From contig JADGDG010000004.1 in NCBI GenBank assembly GCA_016744995.1, positions 186,001 to 250,000 of the forward strand: DNA of 64,000 nucleotides. Reading direction: 5' to 3'. The position numbers and the translations under genes were made by a program. Position 1 is the stretch's first letter; every line of letters starts with the position of its first letter. The notes under the pieces were generated by a model. That model was not told where the DNA came from. It worked only from the letters and a program-made list of their open reading frames with translations, and made no database searches. Of this stretch, positions 55,595 to 63,218 are shown in pieces. The DNA comes from Gammaproteobacteria bacterium. Its GTDB lineage: Bacteria; Pseudomonadota; Gammaproteobacteria; GRL18.

Positions 55595-55720
55595 AGTGAT
55601 CATTAAGGTATGTAATGACCATTACTATAGTCAAAATTAACAGTAAATTTGTATGGAGTCAAGTTGAATGACTATTTTAGCAGTCATAATGGGCTTAATG
55701 ATCATTTTAATGGTCAATTA
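55595..55720 (-). promoter_or_regulatory. Operator cluster before the second hipBA
   Basis: Related dyads occur at 55595-55606 (AGTGATCATTAA), 55612-55625 (GTAATGACCATTAC), 55668-55687 (ATGACT-N8-AGTCAT), 55697-55706 (AATGATCATT) and 55707-55720 (TTAATGGTCAATTA). All share ATGAYCAT-type half-sites. They fill the interval between the antitoxin start and the integrase end, so binding should repress hipBA; the last site overlaps the integrase stop. Confidence 0.65.
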
Positions 55721-57046
55721 TAATAATCCTGAATTCTTTACTCTTGTTCTTAATTCTTCAAGAGTAGGTATGTCCTTTGGCGTTTCGCAAGTCACAATCT
55801 GATCCAAGATAAATTCCCATACTTGTGCGGCACGGCGTTTCTCGAAGTCATAGGAATATTGAATGTAAACTTCGCCTGTAACATCTCTTTCACCATCGCT
55901 GTGATTGAGTATGAGCCGAGCATAGAGTTTTGGAAGTCCAACAGCAGTAATCCATGTTGCACCAGTGCGGCGCAAATCATGGGGGCAAAAATCTGAGATA
56001 TCTAATGCTTTACGATTTTTGCGAATAGCTTGGGGCATGGCGGTAATGCCCAATGGAATTAATTCTGGATTAGGTTTTTTTGGTGGAGACATGGCGCGTG
56101 TCGCACCAAAGATATACGGTGATGCAATTGTATAAGGCGCAACTTCTTCTATAAGCTCCAGAGCGTAACGGTTCAATGGTACGCGGTGCATGGTTTTATT
56201 TTTTGTTTCGTGCATTTCCATTTGCCAAACATTTTCGTCTGGCTTAAATGCGCCATAGCGCATATTGCGCACCTCAACACTGCGCTGCATTGTCACCAAT
56301 GCAAATTTGAGTGCTTTAGCGGTAACAGGGGGAACGCTAAGCATTTCAAACCTGTTCCAGAATTTCCAAATTTCTTCAAAGCTTAAAATTCGACTTCTTG
56401 ATCCTGATGCACCTAAAGATTCAATTTCCATGACAGGGTTATTTTCAATCAATCTTTTTTTCTTCGCTAAATTGAAAAGCTGCCTTGTATAGGCAAGGCT
56501 ATTTTTAACAGCAACTTTACCACTGCGAGAAGCATTTACTGTTTTTTTAGCACGTTTCAAAATACGAGATTGCATTTTGTCAATATCATCGGCAGTGACT
56601 TCATTAATGTTTTTATTTCCCATGATAGGGATCACATCGAGGTTAAAGACACGCACTTCTTCTTTAATCGATGCTTTGCCTTTTAAGTTTGCATATTCGA
56701 TATACACAGCGATAAATGCTGATACGGAGTAGGTAGCTTTTCTCTTTTCTTCTTCGGCTTTTTTATCTGCTACCGGATCACGACCATATTGATAAACTTG
56801 TTCGTAAAGCTCGTCATACTCTTTTCGGGCTTGTCTAATAGTCCACTCTGGATATTTTCCAATTGATATCCATCGGCTTATTTCTTTATTTTCTCCACTC
56901 ATATATTTAAAAACAAATACTTTTGATCCGCTTGGATTGACGCGAATACCAAATCCGGGGCAACCATAACACCAAAATGTTTGGCGTTTTGTTATAGGTT
57001 TAATATTTCTAACCACTGTATCAAGAAACTTTATTGTGTTTGACAT
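55718..57046 (-). CDS. Tyrosine-type site-specific integrase
   Basis: The 442-residue protein has the arm-binding DUF4102-like N terminus (GCPGFGIRVNPSGSKVFVFKYM...SIGKYPEWTIRQARKEYDEL), a SAM-like core-binding domain (about 110-200) and the catalytic domain: Arg in MQRSVEVRNM, Lys in HETKNKTMHRVPL, HDLRRTGATW, LNHSD and the nucleophile Tyr in VYIQYSYDFEKRRAAQ. All catalytic residues are visible. A likely attachment site with a tRNA-Lys core lies 250 bases upstream of its start codon. It belongs to the class that inserts into tRNA genes. Confidence 0.93.
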   Translation of the reverse strand: MSNTIKFLDTVVRNIKPITKRQTFWCYGCPGFGIRVNPSGSKVFVFKYMSGENKEISRWISIGKYPEWTIRQARKEYDELYEQVYQYGRDPVADKKAEEEKRKATYSVSAFIAVYIEYANLKGKASIKEEVRVFNLDVIPIMGNKNINEVTADDIDKMQSRILKRAKKTVNASRSGKVAVKNSLAYTRQLFNLAKKKRLIENNPVMEIESLGASGSRSRILSFEEIWKFWNRFEMLSVPPVTAKALKFALVTMQRSVEVRNMRYGAFKPDENVWQMEMHETKNKTMHRVPLNRYALELIEEVAPYTIASPYIFGATRAMSPPKKPNPELIPLGITAMPQAIRKNRKALDISDFCPHDLRRTGATWITAVGLPKLYARLILNHSDGERDVTGEVYIQYSYDFEKRRAAQVWEFILDQIVTCETPKDIPTLEELRTRVKNSGLL

Positions 57047-57076
57047 CCATGTTCTTTCTGGTATTACGTAAAGCTG

Positions 57077-57437
57077 CTGGCTACTTGGCTGGCTACTTGG
57101 CTGGCTACTTGAGATATGCTTCCTAAATGAGCAGAATAAGCAACTATGAGCAAGAAAAAATCTTTACAACTCTTTGTGAGTAACGGTTACATGGGTTTGT
57201 ATTTTAAGGGGATGTAAAATTTTATAATTAAATCAAAGCAGTAACTTATAACCCTTACTCAGTCTACGTTACAGCGGTTAAAATTGCGTTAAAGCTACTG
57301 ACTTTTAATCAGTAGGTCGAGGGTTCGAATCCCTCAGCGATCACCACTTTTCTCTCAATTATTACAATGCTTTATCTGACATATTAAAAATCATAAAAAT
57401 CGCAAAATTACCCCTAGCTACTTGGCTGGCTACTTGA
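57077..57437 (+). other. Candidate unsplit attP: repeats flanking a tRNA-Lys core
   Basis: Three tandem 12-bp units (CTGGCTACTTGG) lie at 57077-57111 and two more in the same orientation at 57414-57437. Between them lies the 3' half of a tRNA-Lys gene. This is the layout of a lambda-type attP: arm-type integrase sites on both sides of a core identical to the target. The adjacent tyrosine integrase and AlpA-like gene support it. A chance arrangement of a displaced attR is the alternative. Confidence 0.6.
57293..57346 (+). other. 3' fragment of tRNA-Lys (TTT), no 5' half
   Basis: The anticodon arm ACTGA-CTTTTAA-TCAGT (anticodon TTT, 57304-57306), a T arm GAGGG-TTCGAAT-CCCTC, the acceptor 3' strand AGCGATC and CCA are all present. 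The matching 5' acceptor strand (GATCGCT) and a D arm are absent upstream. It cannot make a working tRNA and is best read as the crossover core of an attachment site. Confidence 0.8.
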
Positions 57438-57497
57438 AACAAAATCGGGAATTATCCCGATTTATTATGCTTCACAATTATTGTGGATAACTTTGCA

Positions 57498-57773
57498 CTA
57501 ATCCGATTGGAGGTACATATGAGGATTTTTAATCCAATCATGCAGGTCTTTAAGGTGGAAGGCTTTTCGTATGGAGTTTTTTCGTCGAGACAATTTGTGA
57601 GGTTTTGGAAATGTGCCCCGCGCAATTCTGCGGTTAATCTCTTGCCGCGATATACCGCAAAGTCGTACAGCTAGTTTTATGGGTATTAATGCATTGCTTT
57701 GGATCATTAAAGCCGCTGTCACTTGTGCTTCAAATTCTGCTTTGATACTTTTTTCGCTAATAATATTGTTCAT
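57498..57773 (-). CDS. AlpA-like transcriptional/excision factor
   Basis: A 91-residue protein with the AlpA/excisionase MerR-like winged helix in its second half: IPIKLAVRLCGISRQEINRRIARGTFPKPHKLSRRKNSIRKAFHLKDLHDWIKN. AlpA proteins regulate integrase expression or act as directionality factors on tRNA-integrated islands. It sits on the other side of the attP-like region from the integrase and is read in the same direction, toward it. Confidence 0.85.
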   Translation of the reverse strand: MNNIISEKSIKAEFEAQVTAALMIQSNALIPIKLAVRLCGISRQEINRRIARGTFPKPHKLSRRKNSIRKAFHLKDLHDWIKNPHMYLQSD

Positions 57774-58129
57774 GGTGCGATTCCTTATCGTTAATAGATA
57801 TGGCTGTCAGCCACAACTATATTAAAAAGCACCCATTGAATTAAAAATACCAGTTCTCAGATCGAAATGGCAGGAGAAGACTGGAGTGTTTATTCCGTAC
57901 TTATATTACACAGTAAATCAATTAATATTCAGTTAACACTTACTGCAAAGTTATTTCTCAGAATGGTGTTTTATTGTGTTTTCTATTTAGGAATTTACGT
58001 CCTTGCAGAGATATTCCATCAAGTTTTCTAGCTTTGAATGCCGATCTGCCAGATTTTTTCTAACAGTAAATTTGCATTATTTTTAAAGAGGTGATATCAG
58101 AATTTGAGAAATAAAAGAAAGCCAACTGA
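57774..58129. other. Noncoding interval upstream of the zinc-protease-like gene
   Basis: AT-rich sequence without a convincing gene. A strong GAGGTGAT ribosome-binding-like sequence at 58089-58096 is not followed by a start codon in the frame of the next gene. An out-of-frame TTG (58105) with a short frame (RNKRKPTDCSVKY) follows it, suggesting that the next gene has lost its true start through a frameshift near 58130. Confidence 0.45.
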
Positions 58130-59167
58130 TTGCTCGGTAAAATATTAAAAGGAACTGCCCAATCCGCAGGAGCTTTGACGCTTGCGTTTGAAGTGGCGTT
58201 GTTCAATATGCCATATCTGGTTTCCTCTACAGTCGAGGAGTATATGGAAGATAATGAAATTCCCCTTGAACTAATCAAGAGGGTCAGGACGGATGATATG
58301 CGAGTTTATGACGAGCATAGCCACCTTGCAGCACTTCATTTGGCTTCTTTTTTATTTTGGAACAATGCAAAGAACATAGATTTTCTGTGGGCTTTTGTTG
58401 ACCCTCTAAGTTCTATTCCAGAGATGTATGGTGATATGGCAAGCCTTCACGCCGCAAATGGTAAGTGTATGGTTTATATGCCAGATCTAGATCGAAATGT
58501 TGATGAAATGATTAGCCTTTCCTCTGGTATTCCGAAAGATGATTTAGAACTTTCTCCAAAAATCATCGACACTTTCCGAGCTAATATCCTAATCCATGAA
58601 ATAGGACATGCTCAACCTCTGGCAATGAATGAACAGGAATACTGTGAGCGTAGCCAAATACCAACTTATAAAAAATCAGCATACTACTCAAAACATGTAC
58701 TCCCACTTTATATGGAATTAAGAAGTGATGATTTTTCGCTTGAGCGGATGAATGACAGTGATATTACTGATTACATTATCGCTTTTAGAGCAGTTACTGA
58801 ATTTAACAGAGTAAATAATGTGTCTCATGATACAAGCCTATTTCTGGATGAATGGTTTAATAAAAAAAGCATGAGTATTCGCAATGAAATACCAGATCAC
58901 CAAAAGCATAAGGAACAACTCGTTTCTATACTTACTCCATACATTGAACGCTATAGTTCTGAACAAGTTAAACCATACCAAATTTATAAGGCAGCACTTG
59001 ATTTTCTTGATGATGAAAAAGTAAGCGGAAAAGTATCATATTCTATGCGACGTATAACAGAGCTTTTCGTTGAAGGACTTGAATATTTAGCACCAACAAA
59101 GGCCAACCTGCTTCGTATGGACAGATCACGCCAGAAACCATTGAGCGAGACGGCTCCATCCGTCTAA
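58130..59167 (+). CDS. Putative zinc metalloprotease-like protein
   Basis: Read from TTG, the frame gives 345 residues. ANILIHEIGHAQPLAMNEQEYC near residue 157 holds an HExxH motif (HEIGH), and a downstream Glu/Asp-rich segment (YMELRSDDFSLERMND) could give the third zinc ligand, so a zincin-type peptidase is likely. The N terminus LGKILKGTAQSAGALTLAFEV is hydrophobic. No family recognised. The TTG follows a TGA directly and lacks a ribosome binding site; an in-frame ATG at 58208, or a frameshifted start upstream, are alternatives. Confidence 0.55.
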   Translation: MLGKILKGTAQSAGALTLAFEVALFNMPYLVSSTVEEYMEDNEIPLELIKRVRTDDMRVYDEHSHLAALHLASFLFWNNAKNIDFLWAFVDPLSSIPEMYGDMASLHAANGKCMVYMPDLDRNVDEMISLSSGIPKDDLELSPKIIDTFRANILIHEIGHAQPLAMNEQEYCERSQIPTYKKSAYYSKHVLPLYMELRSDDFSLERMNDSDITDYIIAFRAVTEFNRVNNVSHDTSLFLDEWFNKKSMSIRNEIPDHQKHKEQLVSILTPYIERYSSEQVKPYQIYKAALDFLDDEKVSGKVSYSMRRITELFVEGLEYLAPTKANLLRMDRSRQKPLSETAPSV

Positions 59168-59213
59168 GAGCGATGTGTAAATAGATGCCCTTTCATCAAC
59201 CCCTAAACGTGGC

Positions 59214-59310
59214 GGGGGGTATAGTGATAGGTCGCACAGTTCCGATTTCTGACCACACTTACCACTAAGAACACAGGCAACCGCTATCTTCACGGGTAGC
59301 GGTTGTTTTA
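59214..59310 (+). repeat. Left inverted-repeat arm of the cassette
   Basis: It runs from GGGGGGTATAGTGATAGG to a stem-loop AACCGCTA-N10-TAGCGGTT followed by GTTTTA, which could also terminate the zinc-protease-like transcript. The reverse complement recurs at 61246-61335. Confidence 0.85.
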
Positions 59311-59401
59311 TGATTAAAGGTATATCGTAGGGGTTAAATCGATTTAATTCTTTTAATCAATTCTTCTGTTTTATTAATATTGTTCCCCGTCAGGTCTTAT
59401 G

Positions 59402-59549
59402 AGACCAAATAAAGGTCTTGCATAGCCGCGAGGCTTGGACATACATCGCCGCCTCCCGATCACAGATCGAGAAGCGGCATCATTGCGGCTGATGCCAGCC
59501 GCTTAGCGCAGGGTTTGAAAGCCCCGATTGCTAGCTCAATTACTAGCAA
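59402..59549 (+). ncRNA. GC-rich multi-hairpin leader, possible structured RNA
   Basis: Four hairpins fall within 150 bases: AGACC/GGTCT (59402-59418), GCCGC/GCGGC (59448-59478), GGCATCA/TGATGCC (59476-59496) and TTGCTAG/CTAGCAA (59528-59549). The second competes with an alternative pairing of AAGCGG (59472-59477) with CCGCTT (59499-59504), a switch-like arrangement. The stretch is much richer in GC than its surroundings and lies inside the cassette, 110 bases before its gene. No known RNA family recognised. Confidence 0.45.
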
Positions 59550-59660
59550 CGATCTAAAAGTAGAGGTATTTCTCTTGAGGATCAAGAAGTTAATATCTGG
59601 CCAAATACTTCAAAATGCTTTATTAAAGAAAAGGTTATACAGCGATAGAATAGGTAGATC

Positions 59661-61226
59661 ATGACCGATAATTATTTAGAAGATTTTACAGAGCCAACAC
59701 CACTCGTACTTGTCAGAATTAAGGGCAGTTGGGCTTTTTTACCTTTTGAAACAAAAGTTAAGATTTTGAAAGCCCTTTTAAATATTGACGGAAAAGGCGA
59801 AACGAAACTCCAATATATGTATCAGGTAAATGAGTTGAAGGATTTAGCCCTAAATGATGAGAATCCATATATCAGGTATCTTATTGCCCAAACAATTTCA
59901 AAACCATTTATATGGGGGGATAGAGAGGAAACCGATGAAGACCGTGAAGATGAAGCGCGGTACCAAAAAGTCCTGTCAGATAAAAGCGAACTTGTTCGCT
60001 CAGCAGTAAACGGGAGGATAAGGTTAACGGCTGATAATGAAACTGCCAAGCATTTTTGGTCTTTATCTCATGCAGAACGATTTATGCTTGTTTCCTCTAA
60101 TAGTAAGCTGCTGTTTGACCTAAAAGGTGAGGCTATTGCTAAAATATTAGAATACGCGGCAACAAAACTTTTGCCGAAGAAAAAAGTTTCTACACAAGAA
60201 ATAATGGATGTTATTCAACAGTTCATTTATGACATTAAAGAAAGTGTTTGTAGCATAGAAACACACATAAGCGAGGGCGTTTGTCCAGATACTGACATGC
60301 AACTTGGGGAAGACATGGAAGCCCTTTGGAAAACAGCTTTTTTGCTTCCTGACGAACTTGGTTTTGATTTAATAGAAAACCTGCCCATAAAAGCTGGTTT
60401 TATGTCAGAGATTCCTATCGGTGATGCAAAAAAAATATCAGAACCAAAGTTGTGCCATCTTTTTGGGCGTGATGATGTGGGGCTAAACGAATTACGACGG
60501 AAATTTTATACTGAAAAACCAAGCAAAAAAAATAAGAACCTCCGTGATGCTGCAATATTTTCTCTGTCATTTAAACTAGATGATGATGACTTCAAAAAAT
60601 TGACCCTCAAGGACGAAGATAGTAAGAAAGAAGGAAAGCGAAAACTCGAAGAACTAAGAATGCTTGCAATCTTTTGTAGTGGGGCAACATTGGCACAAAT
60701 GGAAGCCATTATTGGCCTTATAAAAGATATGCCAGATGAATATTTCTCTGGTTATAACGATTGTAGCGATAGTTATGATGATGTTGTATCTGCTCGTGAA
60801 CGTCAAGAATATAGAGTAAGTAAATTAGGAGAGAATCTTTTTGCAGAAGAGCTATTGGATTGGAGGATTTATGCGCTTGCGTCTTCCCTAACGAATGGGT
60901 ATACGTCAAGTGCTGTTGATTTTCTTAAAAGTGATGTTGTGTCCGGTGACCGTTGGGCTACCTACCTAAAAATACGCCCAAAAGTGATAAGCGAGCCAAA
61001 ACTCCATTCAAAGCTGTCCGTATTAAGGCTAGGTGACAAAACATATCCAGCTATGGAAGATGAAGTAGATAATTATGAAGATGAAAAAGACGATATAGCC
61101 GCAAACACGCCCGATCCAACACCTTCATGGCAGCCGCATTTTAAAGTTTTGGAAAAGAAAATTAAGACCATATTTTGGATTACAATCGCTATTTTGGTAA
61201 TAGTCATTGCACAGTCTTCAATTTAG
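59661..61226 (+). CDS. Helical-repeat protein with C-terminal membrane anchor
   Basis: The 521-residue cargo of the cassette. Residues 50-120 read like HEAT-type helical pairs (ELKDLALNDENPYIRYLIAQTISKP, ...YQKVLSDKSELVRSAVNGRI), and more charged helices follow to about 450. A single hydrophobic segment near the end (IFWITIAILVIVIAQSSI) would anchor it with the bulk in the cytoplasm. No catalytic motif or family recognised. It stops 19 bases before the right arm. Such lone, anchored helical-repeat cargo genes can be defence or regulatory factors, but nothing here proves it. Confidence 0.7.
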   Translation: MTDNYLEDFTEPTPLVLVRIKGSWAFLPFETKVKILKALLNIDGKGETKLQYMYQVNELKDLALNDENPYIRYLIAQTISKPFIWGDREETDEDREDEARYQKVLSDKSELVRSAVNGRIRLTADNETAKHFWSLSHAERFMLVSSNSKLLFDLKGEAIAKILEYAATKLLPKKKVSTQEIMDVIQQFIYDIKESVCSIETHISEGVCPDTDMQLGEDMEALWKTAFLLPDELGFDLIENLPIKAGFMSEIPIGDAKKISEPKLCHLFGRDDVGLNELRRKFYTEKPSKKNKNLRDAAIFSLSFKLDDDDFKKLTLKDEDSKKEGKRKLEELRMLAIFCSGATLAQMEAIIGLIKDMPDEYFSGYNDCSDSYDDVVSARERQEYRVSKLGENLFAEELLDWRIYALASSLTNGYTSSAVDFLKSDVVSGDRWATYLKIRPKVISEPKLHSKLSVLRLGDKTYPAMEDEVDNYEDEKDDIAANTPDPTPSWQPHFKVLEKKIKTIFWITIAILVIVIAQSSI

Positions 61227-61245
61227 GAATCCTTTACCTTCTCAC

Positions 61246-61335
61246 TAAAACAACCGCTACCAGTTATGATAGTGGTTGCCTGTGTTCTTAGTGGTAAGTG
61301 TGGTCAGAAATCGGAACTGTGCGACCTATCACTAT
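61246..61335 (-). repeat. Right inverted-repeat arm of the cassette
   Basis: Reverse complement of the left arm, with the stem-loop CAACCGCTA-N10-TAGTGGTTG near its inner end. It is cut at CTAT by the IS3-family insertion; the missing tip (ACCCCCC) resumes after a second CTAT at 62974. Confidence 0.85.
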
Positions 61336-61374
61336 CGGAAGGTGTCAAGGAAGTTGTCATGTGAAATTTTCAAA

Positions 61375-62379
61375 TCATGCTGCAATTTTCACTTCCTTTT
61401 CACGTTTACTTTTATCAGGATTAAGGCTTACCGAAGAAATATGCTTCCAATTTCTAGTGTTCCTAGACCAACGCTGTGGATTTAAAGATTTAGCTTTTAA
61501 ATAAATATAATTACGTTTTTCTAATATTTCAATATCCATACCTGAGTGGCGCTGGTTCGGCGTTACAAATGAGATTGCACTGTGTAAATGCTCATTGTTA
61601 TACCAATTCACAAAGCCCTCAACCCAATTTCGTGCTTGCTCCAAAGATTTAAATTGCTTGCAGGGGTATTTATGGTGATATTTCAGGGTTTTAAATATAC
61701 TTTCGGAATAAGGGTTATCATTGCTTACAGCTGGCCTGCTGAATGATGTAACAACGCCCAGTTTCTGCAAGGTTGCAAGCATAGTAGCGCCTTTCATCGG
61801 CGAGCCATTATCTGAATGTAGCGTGACCTGATGCTTTAAAAGCTCTTCACGCGCGCAAATATCTACCATCAAATCGGCGGCCAAATCAGCGCTTTCAGAC
61901 CTGTGAATCTGCCAGCCAACAATTTTACGTGAATACACATCCATCACCAGATATAGGTATAAAAATATGCCGCGCACATCAGTTGGAAGATACGTAATAT
62001 CCCATGAATAAACCTGATTAGGCGCAGAGGCCACGAGTTCCTTAGGTTTAATAACCTTGCGTCCAGCCCTTGATTTGTTGCGGTGCTTTAGCTGGTTTGC
62101 TGCTTTTAATATGCGATAAAAACTGGCTTCAGAAGCAATATAAGTGCCCTCATCAGCAAGCATGGGAACTATTTTCTTTGGCGGTAAATTGGCAAATCTT
62201 TTTTCATTAGAAATCTTTAAAATGCGCTGCACTTCAAACTCACTAAGTTTATTGGCAGGAATGGGATTATTATGCACGCGCCGATCTTCAGTATTTTTAG
62301 AGCTTTTCCAGCGCTGCCACGTGCGTAAACATACTCCCAAAACTTCACATATATTTGCTTGCCGCGCGCCTGCTAGCAT
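61375..62379 (-). CDS. IS3-family transposase OrfB (DDE catalytic part)
   Basis: The catalytic rve domain has the DDE triad: Asp in SWDITYLPT, Asp in LHSDNGSPM and Glu in NPYSESIFKTLKYH, followed by FVNWYNNEHLHSAI. An N-terminal HTH_21-like region precedes it. From the first ATG it is 334 residues, but the frame extends upstream (GFKGRGRLSSKADRAAIKASIEKA) to the slippery run in orfA, so the active product is probably an OrfAB fusion made by -1 frameshifting at eight A residues (complement of 62466-62473). Confidence 0.93.
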   Translation of the reverse strand: MLAGARQANICEVLGVCLRTWQRWKSSKNTEDRRVHNNPIPANKLSEFEVQRILKISNEKRFANLPPKKIVPMLADEGTYIASEASFYRILKAANQLKHRNKSRAGRKVIKPKELVASAPNQVYSWDITYLPTDVRGIFLYLYLVMDVYSRKIVGWQIHRSESADLAADLMVDICAREELLKHQVTLHSDNGSPMKGATMLATLQKLGVVTSFSRPAVSNDNPYSESIFKTLKYHHKYPCKQFKSLEQARNWVEGFVNWYNNEHLHSAISFVTPNQRHSGMDIEILEKRNYIYLKAKSLNPQRWSRNTRNWKHISSVSLNPDKSKREKEVKIAA

Positions 62380-62426
62380 CGCTTTTTCAATACTGGCTTT
62401 TATAGCAGCTCGATCAGCTTTGCTGC

Positions 62427-62918
62427 TTAATCTTCCTCGTCCCTTGAACCCCAGATTTCCTCTACTTTTTTTTGGAGAACAAGTAAGGCAGCAGTCTCGG
62501 CCAAGGCCTTATCCTTGCGGCGTAGCTCTTTCTTTAATTTCTTATTTTCTTCACGCAAAGCCCGCATTTCCGCCTTGTCTGGGTTAGTGTTTGTGCTAGC
62601 CATATCAGCCTTCCATTGCTCTATATGGTGCTTGTATAGACCATTGCGACGGCAATAGGAATTAAGATTTTCTTCCGTTAAAGAGCCCGATTCAATAAGC
62701 ACTTGAAGCTTTTCGGCCGTGTTCCAATCCTGGGGGCGCTTTTCTGAAGCCGTATTCTTTATAAAACCAGATTTGCGCGATTTTTCAATCCAATGATATA
62801 GGGTTCCGCTCGCTACACCTATATCATTGCATACTTTATCCATGCTGACACCATTGCCACGAGTTAATGCTTTTTCTATTGCGCGTTTCTTGAATGTTTC
62901 ACTGTATTTCTTACTCAT
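62427..62918 (-). CDS. IS3-family transposase OrfA (HTH protein)
   Basis: A 163-residue protein with the HTH_Tnp_1 domain (KYSETFKKRAIEKALTRGNGVSMDKVCNDIGVASGTLYHWIEKSRKSGF) and a C-terminal leucine-zipper-like helix (EMRALREENKKLKKELRRKDKALAETAALLVLQKKVEE). Both are typical of IS3 OrfA. The A8 slippery run near its 3' end would shift ribosomes into orfB. ATG is followed by a Ser-Lys-Lys start as in relatives. Confidence 0.92.
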   Translation of the reverse strand: MSKKYSETFKKRAIEKALTRGNGVSMDKVCNDIGVASGTLYHWIEKSRKSGFIKNTASEKRPQDWNTAEKLQVLIESGSLTEENLNSYCRRNGLYKHHIEQWKADMASTNTNPDKAEMRALREENKKLKKELRRKDKALAETAALLVLQKKVEEIWGSRDEED

Positions 62919-62973
62919 ATACGTTGTCTCCTGTTAATTTTAGTTTAGGTGACAACTACCCTGACACAGGGGG

Positions 62974-63218
62974 CTATACCCCCCTAAACGTGGCGGGGGA
63001 AATTTTCACTTTCTGAGAGAACTATCTGTTCGTATTGATAAACACATAGTGAATAATTATTTTGTTATAGAGATGAATATATTATTCTGAAGGGTGATGT
63101 AAATAACTGAAGCTCATGAGCTGGCTGGTAATTACACATTTCATCTTTATAATGAACTCTCAATACAGCATGGATACCACATGTAAGTTTCTATACTGAA
63201 AAAAGAAGAATTGGTTTC
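62974..63218. other. Outer right cassette end and noncoding spacer
   Basis: It holds the resumed arm tip (CTATACCCCCC), the second direct copy of the 19-bp sequence and about 220 bases of AT-rich DNA before the endonuclease-like gene. Nothing else is recognisable. Confidence 0.5.

Follow-up and report, generated by a model that had tools for sequence, protein, structure and literature searches.

How does a compact cassette that has long facing ends and a single gene, yet lacks a mover, come to lie in a bacterial chromosome? The question is raised by a 64,000-nucleotide stretch of a Gammaproteobacteria bacterium (contig JADGDG010000004.1, positions 186,001 to 250,000; hereafter the window), near the right end of which an earlier note had proposed a candidate mobile insertion cassette whose cargo had not been described before. 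That proposal is supported, as the ends recur elsewhere. The left end of the window cassette and an end of an 11.4 kb casposon from the alphaproteobacterial metagenome-assembled genome JAUHWR are identical at 64 of the outer 67 bp, and the terminal inverted repeats are thus homologous to those of a casposon, as expected of a non-autonomous derivative. The window cassette is very probably a natural non-autonomous casposon (mini-casposon), which would be moved in trans by the Cas1-type casposase of a full casposon.

The JAUHWR element, bounded by two such ends, encodes Cas1 (PF01867, E 2e-40) and a family-B DNA polymerase (PolB) with a C-terminal helix-turn-helix, together with a PtuA-like ATPase, a DUF4238 protein, a KAP-like NTPase, and a protein whose cysteine/histidine pattern we read as HNH-like (no Pfam match). 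Compared with the PDB, its Cas1 matches the M. mazei casposase (6opm) best, and it retains the catalytic residues E, H and E. A second element with these ends, in genome G418 (7.4 kb; G and L numbers are our handles for genomes and loci), encodes Cas1, an HNH-like protein, PolB and an M3 peptidase. Neither a tyrosine recombinase nor a DDE transposase was seen in the JAUHWR element, and the G418 element likewise showed no DDE transposase. In Krupovic et al. (2014; PMC4046053), which describes families 1–4, a casposon is defined by Cas1, PolB, inverted repeats and a target duplication; the JAUHWR and G418 elements have all of these and are therefore casposons. G323 holds a further casposon with these ends, encoding Cas1 and PolB, and the G419 element (6.3 kb) encodes Cas1 with PolB as a fragment only. 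The Cas1 proteins of JAUHWR, G418, G419, G323 and one viral contig form a single clade (support 0.999), the deep placement of which is not settled by the tree.

The window element spans 59216–62982 including a later insertion sequence (IS), and measures 2,125 bp after removal of the IS and one CTAT. Its inverted ends are ∼93 bp long. The facing arms around a single gene were borne out: 90 nt on each side (59221–59310 and 61246–61335) are 96% complementary, far above every other inverted repeat in the region, and the arm pair occurs once in the host draft genome (5.18 Mb, 65 contigs). Neither cas1, polB nor a relic of either was found in the element by its open reading frame (ORF) list and tblastn, which sets it apart from autonomous casposons. 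Its parts are as follows.

59202..59215, no strand: left copy of the target duplication, CCTAAACGTGGCGG, 14 bp, an exact repeat; length taken from the GGGGTATAG end, as at eight other sites
59216..59310, + strand: left terminal inverted repeat, 5'-GGGGTATAGTGATAGG..., recognised by likeness to the JAUHWR end and by alignment A1 (29 ends)
59278..59309, + strand: inward-facing intrinsic terminator in the left arm, a hairpin and T-run with two-sided changes among the 29 ends
59441..59540, + strand: structured RNA-like motif, ∼120 bp 5' of the cargo ORF, common to casposons G419 and G433
59661..61226, + strand: cargo ORF (521 aa) for a helical-repeat-like protein whose C-terminus carries a hydrophobic helix
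61246..61335, − strand: right terminal inverted repeat, portion inside of the IS
61247..61278, − strand: inward-facing intrinsic terminator in the right arm
61332..61335: IS-generated 4-bp duplication, left copy (CTAT)
61336..62973, − strand: IS3-type insertion sequence, with orfA at 62427–62918 and orfB at 61375–62379
62974..62977: IS-generated 4-bp duplication, right copy (CTAT)
62978..62982, − strand: right terminal inverted repeat, outer tip ACCCC
62983..62996: right copy of the target duplication, 14 bp

The direct copies reported at the outer tips are confirmed, with a refinement: the repeat CCCCTAAACGTGGCGGGGG is exact at 59200–59218 and 62981–62999, outside the arms, and the target duplication is 14 bp long, not 10 or 19. 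From the window alone its length is ambiguous (10–18 bp) owing to runs of G and C; comparison with relatives places the start of the window element at 5'-GGGGTATAG, which makes its duplication CCTAAACGTGGCGG, and the empty site would read ..CAACC/CCTAAACGTGGCGG/GGGAAATTTT. With the elements read as starting 5'-GGGG TATAG, duplications of 14–15 bp were obtained at eight of nine resolved sites.

window: CCTAAACGTGGCGG, 14 bp
JAUHWR: CTGCATGATGCGGG, 14 bp
PIVK: GCGCAATCCGTGAC, 14 bp
G419: CGGCTGATAAAGCCG, 15 bp
G418: CGCTATTTTTAGCG, 14 bp
G433: CTCAAACAGAAAACC, 15 bp
SKGD: GGATCGAAAAATCCG, 15 bp (ends on two contigs)
G436: CCGGATAAAACCGG, 14 bp
G431: ∼13 bp, one mismatch

Given the GGGGTATAG end, the window duplication thus has the length made by casposases. 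The A. boonei enzyme duplicates 14–15 bp (PMC6614799) and the M. mazei enzyme 14 bp (PMC6977970), and MetMaz-C1, a casposon shown to be mobile by experiment, starts GGGATATAGG (PMC10359463).

In 23 other genomes of the host's family the arm was not found; in one other gammaproteobacterial genome it matched three places, at 76–77%, and these carry TATAGTGAyAGG..CTGACCACA or a near variant. Searched for across 84,980 species genomes, this pattern turned up in 12 stretches, one of them by chance, and in one viral contig. The chance match, L015 (Proteiniphilum), has neither the hairpin flank nor the arm and was discarded. Within the order of the JAUHWR genome (an alphaproteobacterial order that includes a 'Micavibrio sp.' record), 19 of 142 genomes carry the ends, and alignment A1 contains invariant blocks such as ATAG and TGACCA. 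The search for the arms in other genomes, which had been suggested as a check, therefore found them around different cargo as well as around full transposons, and the paired ends with 14–15 bp duplications exclude ordinary intergenic repeats lacking direct repeats.

Four other elements with these ends have no intact cas1 and carry a single gene or a mere relic of Cas1. PIVK01000008 (L063, 2.0 kb) has a single ATP-grasp gene, G431 (L119, 1.7 kb) a single cation-efflux gene, G436 (L105, 1.5 kb) two ORFs, one of 191 aa and unknown kind and one of 169 aa, and G433 (L106, 1.1 kb) a 30-aa relic of the Cas1 N-terminus. The window cassette is grouped with these four. Single ends at terminators, with no second end recognised, lie in gammaproteobacterial G286/G301 (L009, L010, L011, L060) and G300 (L061, L062), and some of them then run into a common ∼190-bp sequence; they may be decayed copies or one-ended remnants.

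A plausible course of events can be drawn from these comparisons. A casposase from a full casposon in the same cell would recognise the window-type 5'-GGGGTATAG ends, the CCCC-3' termini of which would be joined to the two strands of the 14-bp target; repair would then duplicate those 14 bp, and the 521-aa gene would travel as cargo. Laboratory mini-casposons move in vivo using the proteins of a chromosomal casposon (PMC10359463). Several points weigh against such a history for the window element. Its mobility is read from the sequence; no casposase was found in the host draft genome, where the only Cas1 detected is that of CRISPR type I-F; no empty site was found, the flanks being absent from 15 congeners; and the window target (CCCC-N10-GGGGG-AAATTTT) forms a weak hairpin, not better than shuffles. 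The host type I-F CRISPR-Cas locus (L038:7597-14036, G000:C23) encodes Cas1f, and its Cas3 matches the Cas3f model over only about the first 100 residues. The Cas1 proteins of G297 and G298 and those of the window's genus were not counted as the casposase: their aligned parts share only ∼22–37% identity with the JAUHWR Cas1, and these ends are not nearby.

The failure to find a casposase in the host draft genome also fits a different origin, possible but rather unlikely, in which an autonomous casposon lost cas1 and polB in place, so that the cargo is a former casposon gene and never moved as part of a small element. Internal deletion does occur, as the relic in G433 demonstrates and the PolB fragment in G419 also indicates, and the internal motif of the window cassette is shared with casposons G419 and G433. 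Yet the cargo ORF and the two ends are all intact, the window holds no relic of either gene, and compact single-gene elements with differing cargo recur in several genomes. Decay in place would leave the same sequence and differs from movement as a mini-casposon only in the timing of gene loss.

The insertion sites of the family point to a target. The flanks mostly read AAAAA-GCCC..GGG, with the outer A-run at 25 of 29 insertion sites. Compared with dinucleotide shuffles, flank folding was significant (p<0.05) at 14 of these 29 sites, and the combined Fisher p was 6e-12; some sites share a genome with others, so that not all represent independent lineages. The best palindrome centre mostly lies 7–8 nt from the element end, in the middle of the duplication, with a mean of 3.4 pairs against ≤2.4 in 500 shuffled sets. 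When the empty sites of JAUHWR, G418, G419 and SKGD are rebuilt, each forms a strong hairpin with both an A-run and a T-run, and thus a bidirectional terminator. The G433 target has no hairpin and that of the window is weak; terminator targeting is therefore a preference, not a rule. A symmetrised target served the M. mazei enzyme as well as the natural one (PMC6977970), which fits a palindromic preference. The casposon family with these ends thus appears to prefer intrinsic-terminator hairpins, with the duplication centred on the palindrome, and such a target would suit a two-fold symmetric integrase. It is improbable that this preference is a by-product of intergenic insertion with no recognition of the hairpin: the weak or non-hairpin sites of G433, PIVK and the window would agree with that, but insertion anywhere between genes would leave the duplication uncentred on the loop, whereas the two centres coincide and the flank hairpins jointly exceed the shuffles.

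The idea that the ends belong to a DDE-family insertion cassette and are moved by an IS of, for example, the IS1182 group, which duplicates palindromic targets such as those seen here, is very implausible and was rejected. The DDE-type transposase ORF beside one end in L009 proved, by comparison with L011, to have inserted into a longer repeat, and Cas1 and PolB are what the full elements encode between their two matching ends.

The order of the two insertions in the window can be read from the right arm. The IS3-type element holds two ORFs, orfA with HTH_Tnp_1 and orfB with rve (Pfam). CTAT lies on either side of it, and beyond it the arm picks up again as ACCCC. Because the IS and its CTAT duplication split an arm that then continues, the cassette came first and the IS later, so that the IS3 insertion and the sequence of events described in the earlier note both hold. 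The IS is present in one copy in the host genome, its ends having been set from the interrupted arm, and was not found in 23 relatives. Its entry 5 bp from the tip of the right end probably immobilised the cassette. What that note had overlooked, to judge from the comparisons above, are the casposon ends, the Cas1-type casposase as would-be mover, the 14-bp duplication, and the family's likely preference for terminator hairpins.

Each arm contains an inward-facing hairpin followed by a T-run. RNAalifold over the end (29 ends) gave 19 pairs, eight of them with changes on both sides, and seven of these eight fall in the arm terminator hairpin. The arm terminators may stop transcripts of host genes whose own terminator was split; an inward terminator would block incoming transcripts and so replace the one divided by insertion, which would make insertion mild for the host and keep outside transcription out of the element.

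Upstream of the cargo gene, the internal motif of the window is 72.5% identical to G419 over 102 bp (blastn E 8e-7) and 81% identical to G433 over 52 bp (E 3e-5), and thereby links the window cassette to these two beyond the ends. The motif (model R1) is ∼100 nt long with three hairpins, and its folding z is −3.3 to −4.5 in three members. Besides the window copy, the members are:

L103:4375-4475, − strand
L106:1752-1884, − strand
L114:1238-1347, + strand
L064:3257-3343, − strand, weak

In the window it lies 5' of the cargo ORF on the same strand; in G419 it is placed likewise relative to a DUF4238 ORF, and in JAUHWR perhaps relative to the gene for the PtuA-like ATPase. With three to five members only, the motif is a candidate leader RNA of casposon cargo genes. 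No Rfam match was obtained, and a pattern search of viral contigs was also empty.

The cargo protein matched no Pfam family above cut-off (HEAT weakly, E 0.043). One homologue was found, in G249 (25–27% identity, 497 aa), likewise with a hydrophobic C-terminal segment; casposon ends were not recognised near it. Homologues were not found in plasmids, phages, viral contigs or the JAUHWR order. A low-confidence structure model (pLDDT 66, pTM 0.48) is nearly all helical and solenoid-like, and its Foldseek matches to ARM/HEAT solenoids were not significant. A role of the cargo in defence may be guessed, given that the JAUHWR casposon carries defence-like genes.

Compared with described casposons (PMC4046053), the window family has the same terminal inverted repeats, 14–15 bp duplication, GGGnTATAG ends, and Cas1 and PolB in full-size relatives. 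It differs in that the window element is without cas1 and polB, and in that the described targets are tRNA 3' ends, EF-2 genes and unspecified intergenic sites, whereas the window's family prefers terminator hairpins. Laboratory mini-casposons (PMC10359463; PMC6614799) likewise consist of casposon ends around unrelated cargo, with the casposase provided in trans, as would hold for the window element; these are constructs, whereas the window element occurs naturally and has a cargo gene and arm terminators of its own. With IS-derived mobile insertion cassettes and miniature inverted-repeat transposable elements it has in common ends, a passenger gene and, presumably, a mover supplied in trans, but its ends point to a Cas1 casposase rather than a DDE transposase. 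The accessible portions of open-licence PMC papers yielded neither a non-autonomous casposon from nature nor a terminator target, and 'mini-casposon' there denotes a laboratory construct only.

Taking the family as a whole, we lean towards a bacterial casposon lineage that recognises terminator hairpins, duplicates the hairpin core (14–15 bp) and sustains Cas1-mobilised single-gene cassettes in Alphaproteobacteria and Gammaproteobacteria. Casposons are regarded as the origin of the CRISPR adaptation enzyme Cas1. Duplication of a hairpin core, if true, would be a natural parallel to the duplication of palindromic CRISPR repeats by Cas1-Cas2, and a palindromic hairpin target would make the descent of such repeats from a casposase target preference directly testable. 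Natural elements that lack a casposase and carry diverse cargo would likewise mean that Cas1-type integrases spread bacterial genes, as transposases move insertion cassettes.

Some further features accompany these elements. Defence-like cargo in casposons with these ends comprises the PtuA-like ATPase, a KAP-like NTPase matching PADLOC PDC-S49, and DUF4238 proteins, at the following loci:

L064:1355-3178
L016:3189-6085
L103:3788-4285

The viral contig (L025:2-1118; IMGVR_UViG_3300012268_000167) combines one casposon end and phage head-like genes with a Cas1 that shares 81% identity with the JAUHWR casposase, and is apparently a casposon inserted in a prophage. A phage-type integrase is encoded directly left of the window cassette (55718–59167), together with an AlpA-like gene and an ORF that shows a HEIGH motif but matches nothing in Pfam, and the cassette may sit in a genomic island.

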